64,000 bases of DNA from Vogesella oryzae (GTDB lineage: Bacteria > Pseudomonadota > Gammaproteobacteria > Burkholderiales > Chromobacteriaceae), in NCBI RefSeq assembly GCF_902829295.1, contig NZ_CADEPL010000012.1:1-64000 (forward strand), written 5' to 3'. Shown here one piece after another: positions 6,871-15,067 of this stretch. The notes below the pieces were generated by a model, which was not told the DNA's origin, searched no databases, and saw nothing but the letters and a program-made list of their open reading frames with translations. Both the position numbers and the translations under genes were made by a program. How positions within the stretch are numbered: the first letter of the stretch is position 1; the number at the start of each line of letters is the position of its first letter.

Positions 6871-7566
6871 ATGCCAAACAACACCCGTAAAGCCCTGGTC
6901 GTCCTCTCCGGCGGCCAGGACTCCACTACCTGCCTGTACTGGGCGCTGCGCGAATTCGGCGCGGCCAACGTCGAGGCCGTGACTTTCGATTACGGCCAGC
7001 GCCACCGCATCGAGCTGGACGCAGCGCGCAAGGTGGCCGAGCTGGCCGGCGTGCGCCAGACCGTACTGCCGATCGACACCTTCGCCGCCATCGGCGGCAA
7101 TGCGCTGACCGACGACAGCATCACCCCGGAAAGCGGCGCCCGCGCCGATGACGACAGCGCGCTGCCCAACACCTTCGTGCCGGGGCGCAACCTGGTGTTC
7201 CTCAGCTTTGCCGCCGCCTTTGCCTACACCCGCGGCATCGAGCACGTGGTCACCGGCGTGGCGCAGACCGACTACTCCGGCTACCCCGACTGCCGCGAAA
7301 ACACGCTGAAAGCGCTGGAACTGGCTCTGCGGCTGGGCATGGACAGCCGCGTCACCCTGCACACGCCGCTGATGTTCATGAGCAAGGCCGAAACCGTGCA
7401 GCTGGCGCAAGAGGTCGGCGCCATGGAGGCGATGGCCTGGAGCCATACCTGCTACAACGGTGAAGTGCCGCCGTGCGGCCACTGCGCCTCGTGCGAGCTG
7501 CGCGCCAAGGGCTTTGCCGAAGCCGGCGTGGCCGACCCGCTGCTCGTGCGTACCCGGGGAGCCTGA
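6871..7566 (+). CDS. queC: 7-cyano-7-deazaguanine synthase
   Basis: QueC converts 7-carboxy-7-deazaguanine to preQ0 using ATP and ammonia, the third dedicated step towards queuosine. The protein is 231 residues, the usual length. The PP-loop SGGQDST is at residues 13-19, FDYGQRH follows, and the structural zinc site is the C-terminal cysteine set C194, C202, C205 and C208. It heads the queCDE operon: queD starts 2 nt after its stop. A -10-like TAAAAT at about 6791 lies upstream, without a convincing -35. Confidence 0.95.
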   Translation: MPNNTRKALVVLSGGQDSTTCLYWALREFGAANVEAVTFDYGQRHRIELDAARKVAELAGVRQTVLPIDTFAAIGGNALTDDSITPESGARADDDSALPNTFVPGRNLVFLSFAAAFAYTRGIEHVVTGVAQTDYSGYPDCRENTLKALELALRLGMDSRVTLHTPLMFMSKAETVQLAQEVGAMEAMAWSHTCYNGEVPPCGHCASCELRAKGFAEAGVADPLLVRTRGA

Positions 7567-7568
7567 GC

Positions 7569-8585
7569 ATGAATAGTCATAACCAGCTGGCCGCCGCCGG
7601 CTTCGAAGCCGCACGCAATCTGCCGGGCATCGGCGAGCACGGCCACAGCTTCCGCGTGCTGGCGCGCGCCAACGCGGTGCCGGGCCAGCTGACGCTGGCC
7701 ACCGAGCTGCAACACGCCGCCGCCGCGCTGAACTACAGCCACCTGAACCACAAGCTGGGCAACTGCTGCGACCTGTCGCTGGCGCAGCATCTGGCGGCGC
7801 AGTGCAGCCTGCCGGTGGACCTGCACCTGGCCAGCGCGCCGGATCGCGGCGTGCTGCTGGCTGAGGATGGCCACAGCTATGTCTACCTGGACACCCGCTT
7901 CGAGGCCGCACACCAGCTTCCGCACGTGCCGCCGGGCCACAAGTGCGGCCGCCTGCACGGCCACGGCTTTGGCGTGCGCATCGTCGCCGCGGCCGACAAG
8001 GCCAGCGTGAACGACATCCTGCTCAAGGCCTGGCCGCCGCTGTTCGCGCGGCTGAACCACCGCTACCTCAACGACATTCCCGGGCTGGAAAACCCCACCA
8101 GCGAGGTGATGGCGGCCTGGCTGTACCAGCAGCTGCAACCGGCGCTGGCCGGCCTGGCCTGGGTGGAAGTGCGCGAGACGCACACCGCCGGCAGCCAGTT
8201 CGACGGCGAGAACTTCCGCATCTGGAAGGAACAGCACTTCGAAAGCGCGGTGCCTTTCAACGACGAAGGGCTGTACACCGGCCACAGCTACCTGATCCGC
8301 CTGATGCTGCAAGGCAAGCTGGATACGGTAATGGGCTGGGTGCTGGACTTCGGCGACGTGAAAGAACGCTTCAAGCCGATCTACCGCCAGCTGGACCACA
8401 ACCCGCTGGACAAGCTGCCGGACATCCAGGGCAGCGACAACGCCAGCGTGGCCGAGTGGGTTCACGGCCAGCTCAAGAGCCGGGTGCCGGAGCTGGCGCG
8501 CATCGACCTGATGAGCACGCCGCAGCACGGCGTGTCGCTGAGCTGGCATGGCGACATGCGCTGGCCGCTGCTGTTCGGCCAGTAA
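7569..8585 (+). CDS. queD: 6-carboxy-tetrahydropterin synthase, three PTPS-like modules
   Basis: QueD makes 6-carboxy-tetrahydropterin from dihydroneopterin triphosphate. The usual protein is 120-150 residues; this one is 338 and appears to hold three T-fold (PTPS) modules. Module 1 (about 8-105) is degenerate: FEAARNLPG, GHSFRVLA, LNYSHLNH. Module 2 (about 108-212) is the catalytic one: FEAAHQLPHVPPGHKCGRLHGH supplies zinc ligands H115, H130 and H132 and the catalytic Cys126, with RLNHRYLNDIPGLENPTSE and Glu203 in VRETHTAG. Module 3 (about 222-335) has FESAVPF, TGHSYLIRL and GWVLDFGDVKERFKPIYRQLDHNPLD but lacks the first zinc His and the Cys. It sits between queC and queE, so function is well supported. 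Confidence 0.9.
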   Translation: MNSHNQLAAAGFEAARNLPGIGEHGHSFRVLARANAVPGQLTLATELQHAAAALNYSHLNHKLGNCCDLSLAQHLAAQCSLPVDLHLASAPDRGVLLAEDGHSYVYLDTRFEAAHQLPHVPPGHKCGRLHGHGFGVRIVAAADKASVNDILLKAWPPLFARLNHRYLNDIPGLENPTSEVMAAWLYQQLQPALAGLAWVEVRETHTAGSQFDGENFRIWKEQHFESAVPFNDEGLYTGHSYLIRLMLQGKLDTVMGWVLDFGDVKERFKPIYRQLDHNPLDKLPDIQGSDNASVAEWVHGQLKSRVPELARIDLMSTPQHGVSLSWHGDMRWPLLFGQ

Positions 8586-8595
8586 GGAGCGCGCC

Positions 8596-9225
8596 ATGTA
8601 TACCGTGAAAGAGATTTTCTACACCCTGCAGGGCGAAGGCCGCCAGGCCGGCCGCGCGGCGGTGTTCTGCCGCTTCTCCGGCTGCAACCTGTGGTCCGGC
8701 CGCGAGGAAGACCGCAGCAAGGCGATCTGCCAGTTCTGCGATACCGATTTTGTCGGCACCGGCGACGATGGCGGCAAGTTCCCCACTGCCGCCGAGCTGG
8801 CCGCGCGCATCGCCGCCGAATGGCAGGGCGACGGCGGCCAACCCTATGTGGTGTTCACCGGCGGCGAGCCGCTGCTGCAGCTGGATAGCGCGCTGGTGGA
8901 CGCCATGCACGCCGTCGGTTTCGAAGTGGCGGTGGAAACCAACGGCAGCCTGCCGGCCCCGGCCGGCATCGACTGGATCTGCGTCAGCCCCAAGGCCGGT
9001 GCCGACTGGGTACAGCGCAGCGGCAACGAGCTGAAGCTGGTGTTCCCGCAGCCCACGCTGCTGCCGTCCGAGTTGCCATCCGATCTGCAATTCGAGCACC
9101 TCTATCTGCAGCCGATGGACAGCCCGCTGCAACGGCAGAACACCCGCGAGGCGATTGCCTGGTGCATGGCGCATCCGGCGTGGCGGCTGTCGGTGCAGAC
9201 GCACAAGGTGGTTAACATCCGCTGA
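8596..9225 (+). CDS. queE: 7-carboxy-7-deazaguanine synthase (radical SAM)
   Basis: QueE rearranges 6-carboxy-tetrahydropterin to 7-carboxy-7-deazaguanine with a 4Fe-4S cluster and SAM. The protein is 209 residues. The cluster motif is the expanded CX14CX2C form (CNLW...AICQFCDTDF, cysteines near residues 32, 47 and 50), the type described for Burkholderia QueE rather than the standard CX3CX2C. The SAM-binding FTGGEPLLQ and VETNGSL follow. ATG 8596 has AAGGAG at 8584-8589, which overlaps the queD stop, indicating translational linkage in queCDE. Confidence 0.95.
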   Translation: MYTVKEIFYTLQGEGRQAGRAAVFCRFSGCNLWSGREEDRSKAICQFCDTDFVGTGDDGGKFPTAAELAARIAAEWQGDGGQPYVVFTGGEPLLQLDSALVDAMHAVGFEVAVETNGSLPAPAGIDWICVSPKAGADWVQRSGNELKLVFPQPTLLPSELPSDLQFEHLYLQPMDSPLQRQNTREAIAWCMAHPAWRLSVQTHKVVNIR

Positions 9226-9245
9226 GGTATTTACCCGCCAGACGC

Positions 9246-9275
9246 AAGGCCGCCCGCAGGGCGGCCTTGTCGTTT
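9246..9275 (+). terminator. Terminator-like hairpin after queE
   Basis: Nine-base stem AAGGCCGCC / GGCGGCCTT followed by a weak T-rich stretch (GTCGTTTG). It closes the queCDE operon before the buf operon. Confidence 0.65.
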
Positions 9276-9351
9276 GCCGCCCAGCCGGCGGTAACGTTGG
9301 CCGCAGCCGCCGTGCCTTGGCAGCGCTGCAAAAAAAATTTTGTGCCGTGCT

Positions 9352-9376
9352 GTAATCTCCGGCCAGCAGCGGCGAC
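9352..9376 (+). promoter_or_regulatory. Candidate ECF-sigma promoter of the buf operon
   Basis: GTAATC (9352-9357) and CGAC (9373-9376) are separated by 15 nt and lie about 60 nt upstream of the DUF2282 gene. Related operons in other proteobacteria are driven by ECF sigma factors with GTAACC/CGAA-type elements; I recall this for Caulobacter SigF. No sigma/anti-sigma gene lies in the window, so this is only a candidate. Confidence 0.3.
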
Positions 9377-9436
9377 TAAAGCCCCGAACGCGAAACATTG
9401 CGCGTTTGCCAACCCAACCCTTACCGGAGATTCATC

Positions 9437-9691
9437 ATGTCCTTCACCAGCCAAACCCTGATCGCTTCCGCCCTCACCGCCGTCGTTGCCATGACCGTTG
9501 CCGCGCCGGCCATGGCCGCCGAAAAAGAGAAATGCTATGGCGTGGCCATGGCCGGCAAGAACGACTGCGCCGCCGCCGGCCACAGCTGCGCCGGCCAGTC
9601 CAAGGTCGATAAAGACCCGATGGACTGGAAATATGTCGCCAAGGGCAGCTGCAGCCAGATGGGCGGCATGCTGGAACCGATGAAGAAGTAA
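9437..9691 (+). CDS. bufA: Bufferin-type RiPP precursor (DUF2282)
   Basis: An 84-residue secreted precursor with a Sec signal peptide (residues 1-28, ending APAMAA) and a short mature chain containing four cysteines: C33 (EKCYGVAMAGKNDC), C44, C51 and C72 (AKGSCSQMGG). This is the DUF2282 pattern seen in BufA1 bufferins, whose cysteines are modified by a DUF692 enzyme to bind copper in the periplasm. ATG 9437 follows a CCGGAGA ribosome-binding site. The genes for the modifying enzyme and its partner follow directly. The peptide modification and copper role are inferred from the family and the operon. Confidence 0.85.
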   Translation: MSFTSQTLIASALTAVVAMTVAAPAMAAEKEKCYGVAMAGKNDCAAAGHSCAGQSKVDKDPMDWKYVAKGSCSQMGGMLEPMKK

Positions 9692-9705
9692 TCCTGCCTG
9701 CCGTA

Positions 9706-9727
9706 CCGGTGGCCAGCCGGCCACCGG
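9706..9727 (+). other. Intercistronic stem-loop between bufA and bufB
   Basis: A perfect 9-bp stem, CCGGTGGCC / GGCCACCGG, with a 4-nt AGCC loop, lies entirely in the 58-nt spacer after the precursor gene. It has no T-tract. Such hairpins often protect an upstream message or cause partial read-through, which would let the precursor be made in excess over the enzymes. Confidence 0.6.
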
Positions 9728-9749
9728 CCCTCTCTGCCGGACTGTTGTC

Positions 9750-10589
9750 ATGCTGACTTCCCTCCCCGCCTGCGCCGGCATCGGCCTGCGCCATCCGCAC
9801 TACCGCCAGGTACTGCAACACACCCCGCCGCTGGGCTGGATCGAACTGCACAGCGAGAACTTCTTCGATGGCGGCCAGCCGCTGGCGATGCTGCAGACCC
9901 TGGCCGCACACTACCCGCTCTCGCTGCATGGCGTCGGACTGGGGCCGGGCTCGGCGGCACGGCCGCAGCGCAGCCATCTGGCGGCGTTGCGCCGTCTGCT
10001 GGATGCAGTACCGGTGGCGGCGGTGTCCGAGCATCTGGCCGGCAACCACGATGCCGGTGGCCACTTTGCCAACGACTTGCTGCCGCTTCCCTATACCCAG
10101 GCCACGCTGCTGCAGGTTGCGGCCAACGTGGCCGAAATCCAGGACGCCATCGGCCGCCCGCTGCTGCTGGAAAACCTGTCCGCCTACCTGCACTACCCGC
10201 ACAACGACATGAGCGAGGCCGAGTTCCTGGCCGAGCTGGTGGCGCGCACCGGCTGCGGCATCCTGCTGGATGTGAACAACCTGTACGTCAATCAACAGAA
10301 TCTGAGCGTGGATGTGGCGGCCTTCCTCGCCGCGCTGCCGGCAGACGCCATCGGCGAAATCCACCTTGCCGGCTACAGCACGCGCCAGTTCGACGACGGC
10401 AGCACGCTGCTGGTGGATACCCACAGCCAGCCGGTGTACCCGGCAGTGTGGGCGCTGTACCGCCAGGTACTGGCGCGCTTCGGGCCGCGGCCAACCCTGA
10501 TCGAATGGGATAGCGACATCCCGCCGCTGGATACGCTGCAAGCCGAAGCCGCCAGCGCCGAAGCCATGCTGCAGGAGCTGCGGCCATGA
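9750..10589 (+). CDS. bufB: DUF692 multinuclear iron enzyme (BufB/MbnB/TglH family)
   Basis: A TIM-barrel iron enzyme of 279 residues. In characterised relatives (MbnB, TglH, HvfB, BufB) a di- or tri-iron centre oxidatively modifies cysteines of a ribosomal peptide. Expected ligand-bearing strands are visible: SLHGVGLGPG, SEHLAGNHD, LLLENLSAYLHYPHNDM, GILLDVNNLYVN, EIHLAGYST, VDTHSQPV and IEWDSDIPP. Substrate is presumably the bufA product upstream. It overlaps bufC by 4 nt (ATGA), so the two are translationally coupled, as expected for an obligate enzyme-partner pair. Confidence 0.9.
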   Translation: MLTSLPACAGIGLRHPHYRQVLQHTPPLGWIELHSENFFDGGQPLAMLQTLAAHYPLSLHGVGLGPGSAARPQRSHLAALRRLLDAVPVAAVSEHLAGNHDAGGHFANDLLPLPYTQATLLQVAANVAEIQDAIGRPLLLENLSAYLHYPHNDMSEAEFLAELVARTGCGILLDVNNLYVNQQNLSVDVAAFLAALPADAIGEIHLAGYSTRQFDDGSTLLVDTHSQPVYPAVWALYRQVLARFGPRPTLIEWDSDIPPLDTLQAEAASAEAMLQELRP

Positions 10590-11338
10590 CCGCCGCCGGC
10601 CAATGGCAGCAGGCGCTGCTGGACGCCATCCGCGATCCGCAGTGGCAGCCGGACCCGGACTTCCCTGCCGCCGGGCTGGCGGTGTACCGCAACAACTACC
10701 GCGTTGGGCTGATGGAATGGCTGGCGCAGCTGTACCCGATTTGCCGCCAGCTGCTGGGCGAGGAGTTTTTCACCGCGCTGGCGCGCGAGTTCGTGCGCGT
10801 CACGCCGTCGCGCAGCGGCAACCTGCATCGCTATGGCGGCGAACTGGCCGGTTTCATCGCCGGCTTTGCGCCCTGTGCCGGGCTGCCCTACCTGCCGGAT
10901 GTGGCGCGGCTGGAGTGGGCGCTGCATCGCGGTTATTACGCGGCGGACGCCGCGCCGCTGGCTGCGGCCAACCTGGCGGCCATCGATCCGGCCAGCTGGG
11001 GACGCTTGCGCTTCGGCTTCCAGCCGGCGGCCTGCGTGCTGGCGTCGAACTGGCCGCTGGCCGCCATCCATGCCTGGCACCAGCCGGACAGTGCACGTCA
11101 GCCGGTCGACATGCAGCAGCCACAACCGCTGCTGCTGTACCGCGACAGCGTCGGCGACATGCAGCTGACCGTGCTGGAGTATGCGGCGGCGGCATTCTGC
11201 CACGCGCTGTATCAGGGCAGCACGCTGGAGCAGGCCACTACCGCGGCGCTGGCGCTGGATAGCGGCTTCGACCTGCAGGCCACGCTGCTGCTGTTACTGC
11301 GCTGCGGCGCCCTTGCTACCGTGGAGGAAGCATCATGA
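10586..11338 (+). CDS. bufC: DUF2063 partner protein (BufC/HvfC-like)
   Basis: A 250-residue protein with the N-terminal DUF2063 layout: WQQALLDAIRDP, then LAVYRNNYRVGLMEWLAQLYPICRQLLGEEFFTALAREFVR (about residues 30-72), then LPYLPDVARLEWALHRGYYA (about 102-121). DUF2063 proteins are encoded next to DUF692 enzymes and are thought to deliver the precursor leader to the enzyme. The C-terminal part has a VLEYAAAAFCHALYQG helix region. It overlaps bufB (4 nt) and the DoxX gene (4 nt), so the operon is tightly packed. Confidence 0.85.
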   Translation: MTAAGQWQQALLDAIRDPQWQPDPDFPAAGLAVYRNNYRVGLMEWLAQLYPICRQLLGEEFFTALAREFVRVTPSRSGNLHRYGGELAGFIAGFAPCAGLPYLPDVARLEWALHRGYYAADAAPLAAANLAAIDPASWGRLRFGFQPAACVLASNWPLAAIHAWHQPDSARQPVDMQQPQPLLLYRDSVGDMQLTVLEYAAAAFCHALYQGSTLEQATTAALALDSGFDLQATLLLLLRCGALATVEEAS

Positions 11339-11781
11339 TCACCACCTTGCTGCATTGCGGCCAACGTGCCGGTGCCCAACTGGAGCGCTACCTGCAGCCG
11401 CTGGCGCTGCTGGCCATGCGGCTGTATCTGGCCAATGTGTTCTTCAAGTCCGGGCTGACCAAGCTGGCGGACTGGGACACCACCCTGTTGCTGTTCCGCG
11501 AGGAATACCACGTGCCGCTGTTGCCACCGGAACTGGCGGCGGTGCTGGGCAGCGGCGGCGAGCTGCTGCTGCCGCCCTTGCTGCTCGCCGGGCTGTGCGG
11601 CCGCTTTGCCGCGCTGGGGCTGACTGTGCTCAACCTGATGGCGGTCATCAGCTACTGGCACGTGCTGGCCGGCACGGCGCTGGAATTCCACCTGGTGTGG
11701 GGGCTGATGCTGGCGCTGCTGCTGGCGACCGGCCCGGGGCGACTGGCACTGGATCAGCTAGTCAAACAACGGTTTGGATGA
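11335..11781 (+). CDS. DoxX-family membrane protein of the buf operon
   Basis: An integral membrane protein of 148 residues with about four helices and the DoxX start RYLQPLALLAMRLYLANVFFKSGLTKLADW. DoxX proteins are recurrent fourth members of DUF2282-DUF692-DUF2063 operons. The role is not settled; a redox or export function in the inner membrane is usually suggested. Its start overlaps the bufC stop (ATGA). No terminator is visible before serB 66 nt downstream. Confidence 0.85.
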   Translation: MITTLLHCGQRAGAQLERYLQPLALLAMRLYLANVFFKSGLTKLADWDTTLLLFREEYHVPLLPPELAAVLGSGGELLLPPLLLAGLCGRFAALGLTVLNLMAVISYWHVLAGTALEFHLVWGLMLALLLATGPGRLALDQLVKQRFG

Positions 11782-11847
11782 GGAACGCCGGCGCTGCGCA
11801 ACGCGTGGCATAATCGACGCCAATCTTTCCAACCCAATTGATTGTCC

Positions 11848-12696
11848 ATGAGCGCCAGCCACACTCTCGTCCTGCAAGCCCCCCGTCTCGATGTCACCCG
11901 CGTTACCGAACTGGCCATTCTGGCCGGCGCGGCCAACGTACCGGCCATACAGCACGGCGTTGCCCGCGTGACCGGCTGCAATCCGGCCCGGCGCGAAGTG
12001 GTACTGGAGCGCGCCGAGGCGCTGGGCGTGGATGCCAACTTTGTCGCTGGCGAGCGCCGCTTCGCCGATTTCGGCCTGCTGGTGTCCGACATGGACTCCA
12101 CGCTGATCACCATCGAGTGCATCGACGAGATCGCCGACATGCAGGGGCTGAAGCCGCAGGTGGCGGCCATCACCGAGCGCTCGATGCGCGGCGAGCTGGA
12201 TTTCAGCCAGTCGCTGCGCGAGCGGGTGGCGCTGCTGGCCGGCCTGCCGGAGACCGCGCTGGCGCAGGTGTACGAACAACGCCTGCAGCTGATGCCGGGC
12301 GCGCAAACCCTGCTCACCGCCTGCCGCGAGCACGGCGTGAAGTTCATGCTGGTGTCCGGCGGCTTCACCTACTTTACCGAACGCCTGAAAACCGAGCTGG
12401 GTCTTGACTATACCTATGCCAACCAGCTGGAAATCGTGGACGGCAAGCTTACCGGCCGCGTGCTGGGCGACATCGTCGACGGCGAAGCCAAGCGCCGGCT
12501 GCTGATCGCCAAGCGCGAGGAACTGGGCCTGCGCCCGGAACAGGTAATTGCCGTCGGCGACGGCGCCAACGATCTCGCGATGCTGGCCGAAGCCGGTGTC
12601 GGTGTGGCCGCCCACGCCAAGCCGGTGGTGCGTGCCCAGGCTGCCTACCGCATCAATGTCAGCGGCCTGGACGCCATTCGCAACCTGTTCCTGTAA
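11848..12696 (+). CDS. serB: Phosphoserine phosphatase
   Basis: The last step of serine biosynthesis, phosphoserine to serine. 282 residues. The HAD motif I is DMDSTLI with nucleophile Asp81 and acid Asp83. Motif II is LVSGGFTYFTE, and motif III GDGANDLAMLAEAG with the acidic pair. An N-terminal domain of about 75 residues (ACT-like in homologues) precedes it. ATG 11848 is preferred over an in-frame TTG two codons upstream. The 11-nt spacer to the next gene carries a copy of the 9-mer motif. Confidence 0.95.
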   Translation: MSASHTLVLQAPRLDVTRVTELAILAGAANVPAIQHGVARVTGCNPARREVVLERAEALGVDANFVAGERRFADFGLLVSDMDSTLITIECIDEIADMQGLKPQVAAITERSMRGELDFSQSLRERVALLAGLPETALAQVYEQRLQLMPGAQTLLTACREHGVKFMLVSGGFTYFTERLKTELGLDYTYANQLEIVDGKLTGRVLGDIVDGEAKRRLLIAKREELGLRPEQVIAVGDGANDLAMLAEAGVGVAAHAKPVVRAQAAYRINVSGLDAIRNLFL

Positions 12697-12707
12697 GCGG
12701 CCAACCC

Positions 12708-13211
12708 GTGAACCTGCCCCAGCTCGATACCGCCAGCTTCGACGCCCAGCTGCCACTGGCTATCCGCCAGGCCGATACGCTGGAAACCGCCCGCGCGCTG
12801 CTGGAAACCCGGCTGGCGCTGGCCATCCTGGCGGCGCCGTCCGACAGCGGGGAAGGCTCCGTCCAGCTGCAGCGGCTGGAAGCCAAGCTCGATCTGTCGC
12901 TGGAGCTGGCATTGCGTGCCCGCGCGCCGCTGGCCGGCCAGCCGTGCCTGTGCCGCATCGGGCTGGACAGCATTGCCTGGCAGCAGGACCGCCCGCTGGC
13001 GGAAGCCAGCCAGTGGCTGCTTAGCCTGCAGACCGGACTGGATTCCGCTCTCACCCTGCACCTGCCGGTGACCATCCGCCACTGCGAACAGCAGGCTAGC
13101 GGCTGGCTGCTGCGCGCCGACTGGCGCGGCGCCCTGCCCGAAGCGGTGCAGCAGAACTGGGAGCGCTGGGTGTTCCGCGGCCATCGCCAGCAGGTAGGCA
13201 AACGCCGATGA
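12708..13211 (+). CDS. Atypical PilZ-like protein (tPilZ family), probable
   Basis: A small cytoplasmic protein of 167 residues. The N-terminal half is helical (ALLETRLALAILAAP), followed by VQLQRLEAKLDLSLELALRARAP and a beta-rich part (LTLHLPVTIRHCEQQASGWLLRADW). This resembles the tetrameric, non-canonical PilZ family that often precedes GGDEF genes and does not bind c-di-GMP by the RxxxR motif. I assign it by pattern and context only. It starts 11 nt after serB and its stop overlaps the diguanylate cyclase start (ATGA), so they are co-translated. Confidence 0.5.
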   Translation: MNLPQLDTASFDAQLPLAIRQADTLETARALLETRLALAILAAPSDSGEGSVQLQRLEAKLDLSLELALRARAPLAGQPCLCRIGLDSIAWQQDRPLAEASQWLLSLQTGLDSALTLHLPVTIRHCEQQASGWLLRADWRGALPEAVQQNWERWVFRGHRQQVGKRR

Positions 13212-15067
13212 CCAACACCCCGAACTCGCCACTGGATCGCCACGAGTCCCGCCTGCGCTGGATGGACAGCATCGTCGCCGCACTGTTTCTGCTCCTGCTG
13301 TGGTGGCTGGTGGCCGAGATCCTGTATGACCGCGCCGGCAACCTGAGCCAGCGCGTCGAGCTGCGCCAGCAAGCCTGGCTGCAGCAGGCCAGCCGCGCGG
13401 TGGATGCCCGGCTGGAGGCGCTGCAGCGCGAGATGCAGCTGTTCGGCCAGGTTTCCCCCGGACTGGCACAACAGGCCGCCAGCCTGTACCCGCTGGAAAA
13501 CGGCCAACTGTGGCTGCTGGAACACGAGCAGCTCAGCCAGTTGCAGGGCCCGCAGCAAGCCCTGCCGGTACGCGCCCGCGACAATATGCAGCAGCTGCTG
13601 GCGCAGCACCCGGTACACGGCAAGATGCTGCTGCTGCCTGCCAGTACCGCGGATACGCCGGACCGGCTGCAAGTCAGCATGGCGGTATGCGAGGACGACA
13701 GCCAGCCCTGCGAGCGCGTGATTACCGGCTTTGTCTCCCTGACCGCGCTGCTGGACCCGGAACTGCTGCTACCGCGCCCGCACTTCGCGCTGCTGGATGC
13801 CCAGGGTAACCAGCTGGCGGCCAGACACGACAGTAACGACAACGGCAGCAGCCTGCTGCGCACCCACAGCAGCAGCAGCACGCTGAGCACGGTTCCGTTG
13901 CAGTTGGCGGTGCAATTCAACCCGCGCGACGACCTGCGCCCGTTCATGCTGTTTGCACTGTTCCTGGTCACCGGCGCCGCGCTGCTCAGCCTGCTGCTGT
14001 TGCTGCTGATCGTGCGCGTCAACCGCAAGCTTGGCCGCGCCATGCGCCATAACCGCGAAGTCACCCAGGCCACCTACCTGCTGACGCTGACCAACAACAG
14101 CCTGCGCGAGCGGCTGCAAGTGCTGGTGGACGAGCAGCGCGACCAGCAGACGCTGATCGACACCGTGCAGGTGGGGGTGCTGATGCTGGATGCCGAGCAG
14201 CAGACCCTGCTCACCGCCAACGAGGCCGCACTACGCATGCTGGGCTTCAACCGCCAGGCGCTGTTCCGCCAGCTGCCGGAGCAACTGTTCGCCGACCCGG
14301 CACAGTACACCCTGCTGCAGACGCAGCTGAAAGAGCAGCAACTGGTCAGCGAACGCGAGGTGGAACTGGTCACCCGCAACGGCGAGCGGCTGTGGACGGT
14401 GCTATCGATGCGGCCGCTGCTGTTCCGCGAGCGGCGCGCCATCGTGCTGAGCTTTGTCGACATCACCGAGCGGCTGCTACACGCGCAGCGGCTGGAGCAG
14501 GAAAAACAGACCACCGAGCGCACCCTTGCGCAGCTGCAATCCACCCAGCACGAGCTGTACCAGCGTGCCACCCGCGACGATCTGACCGGCATCGCCAACC
14601 GCCGCCACTTCCTCAGCAATGCCGGCAAGGCGCTGGAGCAGGCGCGGCGCGAGCAGCAGCCGTTCGCGGTGGCGGTACTGGATGTCGACCGTTTCAAGTC
14701 CATCAACGACCACTACGGCCACGCGGTCGGCGACAGCGTGCTGCGCCAGAGCGCCAGCCGCATTACCGAGCTGCTGCCGGAGGTGGCGCTGTTCGGCCGT
14801 CTCGGCGGCGAAGAATTTGCCATCGCCCTGCCCGGCTTCACCCAGCTGGAAGCGCATGCCTTGCTGGATCAGCTGCGCGATCAGTTGGCCGCACAACCGT
14901 TGCAGGTGGACGAGCATCTGCTGCTGGTGACCTTCTCCGCCGGCGTGGCCGAGCGCCAGTTGAGCGGCGACCTGCTATCCGGCCTGCTGAAGGAAGCCGA
15001 CCACGCCATGTACCGCGCCAAGCGCAGCGGCCGCAACCGGGTGGAAAGCGCGCGCGGCACCAGCTAA
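13208..15067 (+). CDS. Membrane PAS-GGDEF diguanylate cyclase
   Basis: A predicted inner-membrane c-di-GMP synthase of 619 residues. TM1 spans about 20-40, followed by a periplasmic sensor region to about 240 and TM2 at about 245-268. A cytoplasmic linker of heptad character (NNSLRERLQVLVDEQRDQQ) follows, then a PAS domain (about 315-425, ending VLSFVDITERL) and GGDEF (about 455-615). The active-site loop is GGEEF at 533-537. The RxxD inhibitory site expected five residues before it is absent (PEVALFGRL), so product feedback is probably lacking. It overlaps the PilZ-like gene. Confidence 0.9.
   Translation: MTNTPNSPLDRHESRLRWMDSIVAALFLLLLWWLVAEILYDRAGNLSQRVELRQQAWLQQASRAVDARLEALQREMQLFGQVSPGLAQQAASLYPLENGQLWLLEHEQLSQLQGPQQALPVRARDNMQQLLAQHPVHGKMLLLPASTADTPDRLQVSMAVCEDDSQPCERVITGFVSLTALLDPELLLPRPHFALLDAQGNQLAARHDSNDNGSSLLRTHSSSSTLSTVPLQLAVQFNPRDDLRPFMLFALFLVTGAALLSLLLLLLIVRVNRKLGRAMRHNREVTQATYLLTLTNNSLRERLQVLVDEQRDQQTLIDTVQVGVLMLDAEQQTLLTANEAALRMLGFNRQALFRQLPEQLFADPAQYTLLQTQLKEQQLVSEREVELVTRNGERLWTVLSMRPLLFRERRAIVLSFVDITERLLHAQRLEQEKQTTERTLAQLQSTQHELYQRATRDDLTGIANRRHFLSNAGKALEQARREQQPFAVAVLDVDRFKSINDHYGHAVGDSVLRQSASRITELLPEVALFGRLGGEEFAIALPGFTQLEAHALLDQLRDQLAAQPLQVDEHLLLVTFSAGVAERQLSGDLLSGLLKEADHAMYRAKRSGRNRVESARGTS

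Follow-up and report, generated by a model that had tools for sequence, protein, structure and literature searches.

Bufferins number in the thousands, and those of the Buf1 type correspond to DUF2282 precursors with four conserved Cys, of which the central ones are modified and the outer pair is joined by a disulphide (PMC12452194). Cells under copper stress grow better with bufferins (PMC12452194). The characterised MNIO-PME1 products carry 5-thiooxazole and generally bind copper (PMC12668002). Here, an operon of this type is described at 9437-11781, on the + strand, of a 64,000-nucleotide stretch of the Vogesella oryzae genome (contig NZ_CADEPL010000012.1, positions 1 to 64,000; hereafter the window). 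Its four genes encode a DUF2282 precursor (BufA), an MNIO (DUF692) enzyme (BufB), a DUF2063 partner protein (BufC) and a DoxX protein. The operon itself is an ordinary, real and intact Buf1 operon of a type already known from the GIG operons, from Caulobacter CC3254-CC3257 and from Antoine et al. 2025; the addition made here, modest and testable, is a conserved promoter that would link bufferin expression to a Neisseria-type sigma/anti-sigma pair. Statements on the literature are drawn from extracts of PMC12452194, PMC12668002, PMC10304878, PMC3240639, PMC2893595, PMC3511200 and PMC5413113.

Caulobacter CC3254-CC3257 comprises a DUF2282 precursor, an MNIO, a DUF2063 protein and a DoxX protein in the same order as in V. 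oryzae, but there the genes for sigmaF and its negative regulator (CC3253 and CC3252) adjoin the operon and the promoter is GTAACC-N16-CGAA (PMC3511200). In V. oryzae the promoter is TGTAAT-N16-CGACTA, and a sigmaF/NrsF system was rejected for this genome, in which no NrsF gene was found. The gigPABT operon of Cupriavidus metallidurans, which is induced by copper and gold, likewise consists of four genes, namely a four-Cys precursor, GigA, GigB (DUF2063) and GigT (DoxX-like); it lies divergent from rpoQ-rsqA and the anti-sigma factor is predicted to be membrane-bound (PMC10304878), whereas in V. oryzae the candidate sigma gene is unlinked and the anti-sigma factor is a zinc-finger protein of 57 amino acids. 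Legionella pneumophila lpg2105-2108 is a related gene set, in which lpg2107 is DUF692 and lpg2108 is DUF2282 (PMC5413113).

The neisserial sigmaE/MseR system (NMB2140-NMB2145; EGKCG clusters gonophorin and oxazolin) resembles that of V. oryzae in its anti-sigma residues and in having a related promoter (PMC2893595). Furthermore, the V. oryzae sigma factor belongs to the family of the sigma factor in a cluster of genome G103 that is described below. The systems differ in that the V. oryzae precursor is DUF2282 rather than EGKCG repeats, the -10 element is CGACTAA rather than CGTCTAA, and the sigma/anti-sigma genes lie outside the MNIO operon, on contig C19 behind radA. A literature search joining Vogesella, Chromobacterium, copper and bufferin gave nothing on the subject among the matches listed; the last term also matches 'buffering'.

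The four-gene Buf1 operon

The coding features of the operon are as follows.

9426-9429, + strand: ribosome binding site GGAG of bufA (from the sequence)
9437-9691, + strand: bufA, bufferin-1 precursor, 84 amino acids, Cys 33, 44, 51 and 72 (Pfam DUF2282, E 1.4e-23; invariant Cys)
9750-10589, + strand: bufB, MNIO (DUF692) bufferin maturase, 279 amino acids (NF050167, PF05114, solved relatives)
10586-11338, + strand: bufC, DUF2063 partner protein, 250 amino acids (Pfam DUF2063, 1.4e-25)
11335-11781, + strand: DoxX-family membrane protein, GigT-like, 148 amino acids (Pfam DoxX, 5.2e-15)

An earlier, sequence-only reading had proposed these four families in this order, with 4-nucleotide overlaps between the last three genes and a bufferin-type identity, and all of this was borne out. 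Each product scores above its Pfam cut-off (DUF2282, MbnB_TglH_ChrH, DUF2063 and DoxX), and bufB/bufC and bufC/doxX overlap by ATGA at 10586-10589 and 11335-11338, as read from the sequence. BufA matches DUF2282 with 83 bits (cut-off 22.4), and BufB scores 342.3 bits against the NCBIfam bufferin-maturase model MNIO_BufB (NF050167; cut-off 310) and 2.6e-97 against Pfam PF05114. BufC and the DoxX protein stay under the cut-offs of the NCBIfam models HvfC (66.2 bits, cut-off 142) and HvfX (56.7 bits, cut-off 80). The ATG start of bufA gives the 84-residue product; a program-made list of open reading frames begins it instead at TTG 9398.

The four Cys of BufA are invariant in 55 of 55 aligned sequences, that of the window and 54 others, picked from 68 candidates. 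The spacing C33-X10-C44-X6-C51-X20-C72 given in the sequence-only reading was confirmed by residue count, but its presentation as something particular to this operon did not hold up, C-X10-C-X6/7/8-C-X20-C being the family norm, seen in all 156 precursor translations, of which 134 are distinct. Since 57 of the 61 host-family genomes also have DUF2282, neither the operon nor the Cys spacing is special; operons of this kind were known before, are common and occur almost throughout the family. Identity as Buf2 (BufA2) was rejected, as BufA scores 32.7 bits against the NCBIfam BufA2 equivalog (cut-off 60) and has four Cys against six for Buf2.

The source genome has one DUF2282 match and one MNIO match, and the nearest BufB enzymes in named genomes are 78-80% identical, in Vogesella species and unclassified Neisseriaceae/Betaproteobacteria. 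Among 80 loci found via the enzyme, a precursor is present in 78, DUF2063 in all 80 and DoxX in 74; the two loci with no precursor end close to the enzyme. The co-occurrence of the four genes and their Pfam scores are not chance.

Solved relatives of BufB are 3bww (9e-31), 8hci (also 8hi7; 1.3e-19) and the MbnB structure 7dz9 (7.1e-8), and the BufB motif IEWD (251-254) aligns with LERD of 3bww. FonB-Asp249 is described as a catalytic base (PMC12668002), and the Asp of IEWD is taken to be its probable counterpart. No credible solved relative was found for BufC by phmmer, nor for BufA by profile search, which gave a single chance-level match (E 0.32). The AlphaFold model of BufA has a mean predicted local distance difference test score of 69 and a predicted template modelling score of 0.47, and matches no solved fold at E <= 0.001.

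By reading, the BufA N-terminus has a hydrophobic stretch, putatively of Sec type, ending AMA-AEKEKC, with an AMA-AE site. Its n-region (window 9437-9520) contains neither Lys nor Arg, which is unusual for a Sec signal peptide and is also the case in several members of the genus; BufA in other genera starts MKQNK or similar.

The bufA promoter and a candidate sigma factor

Two features upstream of bufA concern its transcription.

9330-9341, + strand: A/T tract 5' of the -35 element, possible UP element (from the sequence)
9351-9379, + strand: extracytoplasmic function (ECF)-type promoter, TGTAAT (9351-9356), N16, CGACTAA (9373-9379) (genus-wide conservation)

In this genus bufA is preceded by a strictly conserved ECF promoter that is nearly private to it. 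The site is present in 12 of the 12 genus genomes that have bufA; G049 is the sole genome lacking DUF2282 among the 13. Across these 13 genomes TGTAAT-N15,16-CGACTA matches 13 times, 12 of them at bufA and one elsewhere in G052 (two matches for the reversed pattern), and TGTAAD-N16-CGWCTAA matches 14 times, again 12 at bufA (control 5). The two remaining matches are one identical 29-base sequence in G055 and G057. These sites (L246 on contig C3 of G055, L242 on contig C55 of G057), with TGTAAG-N16-CGTCTAA, each have a further small sigma gene roughly 3 kb away.

The window promoter, GTAATCTCC / CGACTAAA, is related to the meningococcal sigmaE consensus GTMAGBWTT / CGTCTAAH, from which it differs at several positions; the meningococcal promoters are reported to have an A/T-rich UP element on their upstream side (PMC2893595). 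By reading, genus relatives have an A/T stretch at a position similar to that in the window, and many other family operons carry TGTAAGAA / CGAC.

Beyond the genus, 109 distinct operons with at least 150 nucleotides upstream were surveyed for class A (TGTAA[GT]-N14..18-CGAC) and for the Caulobacter-sigmaF class (TGTAAC-N15..17-CGAA). Class A occurs in 36 of 45 host-family operons (shuffles: mean 0.01, maximum 1), the 45 being the family loci in the survey rather than all 57 family genomes with DUF2282, which is a weak point of the count. Among the 64 other operons it occurs in 10 (shuffles: mean 0.11, maximum 2), the sigmaF class in 15 and neither in 40, with both classes in one operon. Although spacers of 14-18 were permitted, the class A spacer is 16 in 57 of 58 matches.

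No sigma gene adjoins the operon. The conserved promoter suggests that the operon is switched by a stress-response sigma factor encoded at a distance, and a search for ECF sigma genes elsewhere in the genome, suggested in the sequence-only reading, was run and yielded an ECF sigma/zinc-finger anti-sigma pair on contig C19 of the source genome (G000). Sigma70_r2 has eight matches in the genome. Four proteins were examined: RpoE with an RseA-like open reading frame, a long ECF protein, the C19 protein beside radA and, by reading, a FliA-like protein; the remaining four matches were assigned to RpoD, RpoS, RpoH and FliA types by length alone. The long ECF gene adjoins a flavin adenine dinucleotide oxidoreductase-like gene and is presumably ECF41-like.

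The C19 protein scores 247.8 bits against TIGR02943 (cut-off 162.2), and the open reading frame after it encodes a zf-HC2 protein of 57 amino acids that scores 75.6 against the antisigmaE model (cut-off 50). Cys4, His30, Cys34 and Cys37 of this protein are the four positions mutated in meningococcal NMB2145 (PMC2893595).

When loci L033-L132 were searched with RpoE, the long ECF protein and the C19 protein, the last gave near full-length matches of 42-49% identity in L044, L047, L049, L056, L079 and L086. Weaker sigma matches of 28-38% identity (L104, L087, L095, L126 and a second in L049) were not counted as C19-type. All six C19-type genes lie upstream of bufA on the opposite strand (about 2.5 kb away in L047), and at bufA itself the promoter is TGTAAGG with CGACTA in five loci or CGACTG in L044, the sigmaF class being found in none. 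Sigma type and promoter class are associated: class A occurs in 6 of 6 C19-type loci and in 4 of 58 other non-family operons (Fisher p 2.8e-6, with kinship ignored).

TIGR02943 is present in 74 of 150 order-level genomes, and of the 30 best-scoring TIGR02943 loci 9 have relatives of BufA, BufB or BufC in the flank that was fetched, with DoxX only in one more. In G103 a one-direction cluster of six genes, preceded by a TGTAAG-N17-CGTCTAA site, comprises DoxX, an EGKCG-repeat precursor, an MNIO, a DUF2063 protein with NGO1945_C, a TIGR02943 sigma factor and a zf-HC2 anti-sigma factor, a layout we take to be that of the meningococcal operon NMB2140-2145. From this cluster the meningococcal sigma factor is judged to be a putative TIGR02943 member. 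No literature linking TIGR02943, an ECF sigma factor or a zinc-binding anti-sigma factor with MNIO/DUF692 was found, by title or start of abstract, among the matches listed.

Hairpins, proposed mechanism and alternatives

Two hairpins were recognised in the transcript.

9387-9406, + strand: leader hairpin AACGCG-N8-CGCGTT, at or near the predicted transcript 5' end (genus alignment)
9706-9727, + strand: intergenic GC-rich hairpin CCGGTGGCC-AGCC-GGCCACCGG between bufA and bufB (family spacers)

The +1 position is predicted at about 9387, six nucleotides past the -10 motif, by extrapolation from meningococcal sigmaE (PMC2893595). In 12 genus sequences the leader stem is paired in 98.6% of cells; of its six pairs five are invariant, and one shows a compensatory change (in 3 sequences) and is broken in one sequence. 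Other genera have different leader stems at a similar position, and class A leaders form more stable folds than shuffled sequences do (mean z -2.04 over 44 leaders, of which 32 have z < -1).

A GC-rich stem was seen by reading in 25 of 25 selected family bufA-bufB spacers (mean z -1.84, with z < -1.5 in 11 of them). It is followed by a T run, as in an intrinsic terminator, in L035, L036, L037, L116, L039 and L043, and by none in the window. L037 is the operon of Vogesella indigofera DSM 3303. The intergenic hairpin is possibly an attenuator or an mRNA-stabilising element. Keeping the precursor in excess over the enzymes is the likely purpose of the hairpins. No Rfam family was found in 9000-12000.

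With relatives as the guide to the chemistry and to copper binding, to trans regulation and the inducer, and to the hairpin roles, the following mechanism is proposed. BufC would assist the cytoplasmic recognition of BufA, and the iron enzyme BufB would oxidise this precursor, turning the central C44 and C51 into 5-thiooxazoles. Sec would then export the peptide, C33 and C72 would form a disulphide, and the mature peptide would bind up excess periplasmic Cu(I), with DoxX assisting through some membrane step. Transcription would begin from the ECF promoter, most likely read by the C19 sigma factor, which the MseR-type anti-sigma factor would hold back, and the two hairpins would favour much precursor and less enzyme.

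The product of the four genes is almost certainly a bufferin, a copper-binding periplasmic peptide, and copper sequestration by a thiooxazole peptide is proposed because of homology to Buf1, MNIO-PME1 and gigPABT. Control of bufA in trans by the C19 sigma factor is, by itself, probable. The combination of a Buf1 operon, thiooxazole sequestration of Cu(I), an ECF promoter, a sigma factor acting in trans and a hairpin-tuned precursor/enzyme ratio is held with high confidence.

Several observations weigh against this combined reading. The C19 sigma gene lies 8 nucleotides behind radA and not beside bufA, and no class A-like promoter was seen around it or, apart from that of bufA, anywhere in the source genome, so autoregulation is not visible. 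G049 retains the sigma/anti-sigma pair beside radA, 74% identical, with no bufA or MNIO match, and there the pair therefore has another role or is an orphan. The six C19-type loci are Gallionella-, Nitrotoga-, Ferrovum-type or other Betaproteobacteria and are not independent; furthermore, the class A pattern was framed after genus and family sequences had been inspected, and was first applied together with inspection of these same six loci. Among the 45 family operons, 2 carry the sigmaF class and 7 neither class. When rpoQ was deleted in C. metallidurans, metal-treated cells expressed gig more strongly, not less (PMC10304878). As for the leader, only one stem pair covaries within the genus, and sigmaF-class leaders likewise form more stable folds than shuffled sequences (mean z -1.24 over 17 leaders, of which 10 have z < -1), so the hairpin is not peculiar to class A and is suggestive only.

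That TGTAAT-N16-CGACTA is the site of a housekeeping sigma factor, RpoE, another ECF factor or a copper-responsive activator is an unlikely alternative. In its favour, no sigma gene adjoins the operon, NrsF is missing from the genome, RpoE, the long ECF protein and other sigma factors are present in it, and the C19 sigma gene is kept where bufA is lost. The fixed 16-nucleotide spacer favours a sigma-type promoter but is silent on which sigma factor reads it; the C19 type is favoured by the promoter class common to all six loci with such a gene nearby, and by the site that precedes the G103 cluster containing such a sigma factor. With respect to the inducer, the same operon might have as its target not copper but a different thiophilic stress (gold, chromate, hypochlorite or peroxide). 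GIG operons are triggered by both metals, gold and copper (PMC10304878, PMC5413113), work on Caulobacter sigmaF, a regulator of such operons, was done under chromium stress (PMC3511200), and hydrogen peroxide is described as eliciting a response of gonococcal NGO1947 and NGO1948 (PMC2893595). We nevertheless rate this as improbable, since bufferins improve growth under copper stress (PMC12452194), characterised relatives generally bind copper (PMC12668002), and copper itself induces gig (PMC10304878) and the Legionella GIG promoter (PMC5413113).

It is very improbable that the precursor is left unmodified, its four Cys binding metal directly or forming two disulphides with DUF692 and DUF2063 acting elsewhere. 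Precursor genes with no adjacent MNIO do exist (PMC12452194, and L017 below), but the precursor stands beside an MNIO in 78 of the 80 enzyme-found loci, both exceptions being loci truncated near the enzyme, and BufB is above the bufferin-maturase cut-off.

Going further than the proposed control of bufA by the C19 sigma factor, the Neisserial-type sigmaE/MseR pathway could at root be a Cu(I)-sensing switch for thiooxazole metallophores. The Vogesella version would be unlinked and have essentially one target, bufA, and its C4-H30-C34-C37 anti-sigma factor would free the sigma factor once a thiophilic metal displaced zinc. This idea is speculative and on balance doubtful. Meningococcal sigmaE is described as not activated by peroxide, diamide, singlet oxygen or sodium dodecyl sulphate-EDTA (PMC2893595). 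What an MseR-type anti-sigma factor senses could be studied cleanly in an environmental genus that has a single promoter target.

Variant loci and neighbouring genes

The G049 locus that retains the sigma/anti-sigma pair (L250) is a natural case for finding another target of that pair. In L017 (genome G039) bufA stands alone between queE- and serB-like genes, with no adjoining bufBC-doxX and no class A or F site within 320 nucleotides, and G039 contains a single DUF2282 match, its three MNIO matches lying elsewhere. L017 may be an orphan precursor that is modified in trans or is decaying.

Two precursor genes precede one MNIO in L004, L007-L009, L011-L014, L016, L018-L025, L027, L028, L030, L032, L038, L042 and L043, and all 10 genomes of genus g2, together with 18 of the 19 from g3, have two DUF2282 matches. 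The paired copies diverge between C44 and C51 and past C51. G048 has three additional bufferin clusters, on contigs C13, C34 and C36, with equal scores, two of them at the same coordinates on two contigs; they are either recent copies or an assembly duplicate.

In the window, the operon lies between a queE-like gene upstream (8596-9225) and a serB-like gene downstream (from about 11842), both named by reading; the Pfam families of the neighbours are radical SAM, beside QueC, and HAD hydrolase. These flanking genes appear to be housekeeping and the unit is therefore the four genes plus the leader. Further upstream, between queC and the queE-like gene, 7566-8585 encodes a QueD-like protein of 339 amino acids with two PTPS stretches, which exceeds the single-domain enzyme in length. 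At 12708-15067, beyond the serB-like gene on its downstream side, a tPilZ-domain gene overlaps a PAS-GGDEF gene, likely a cyclic di-GMP pair.

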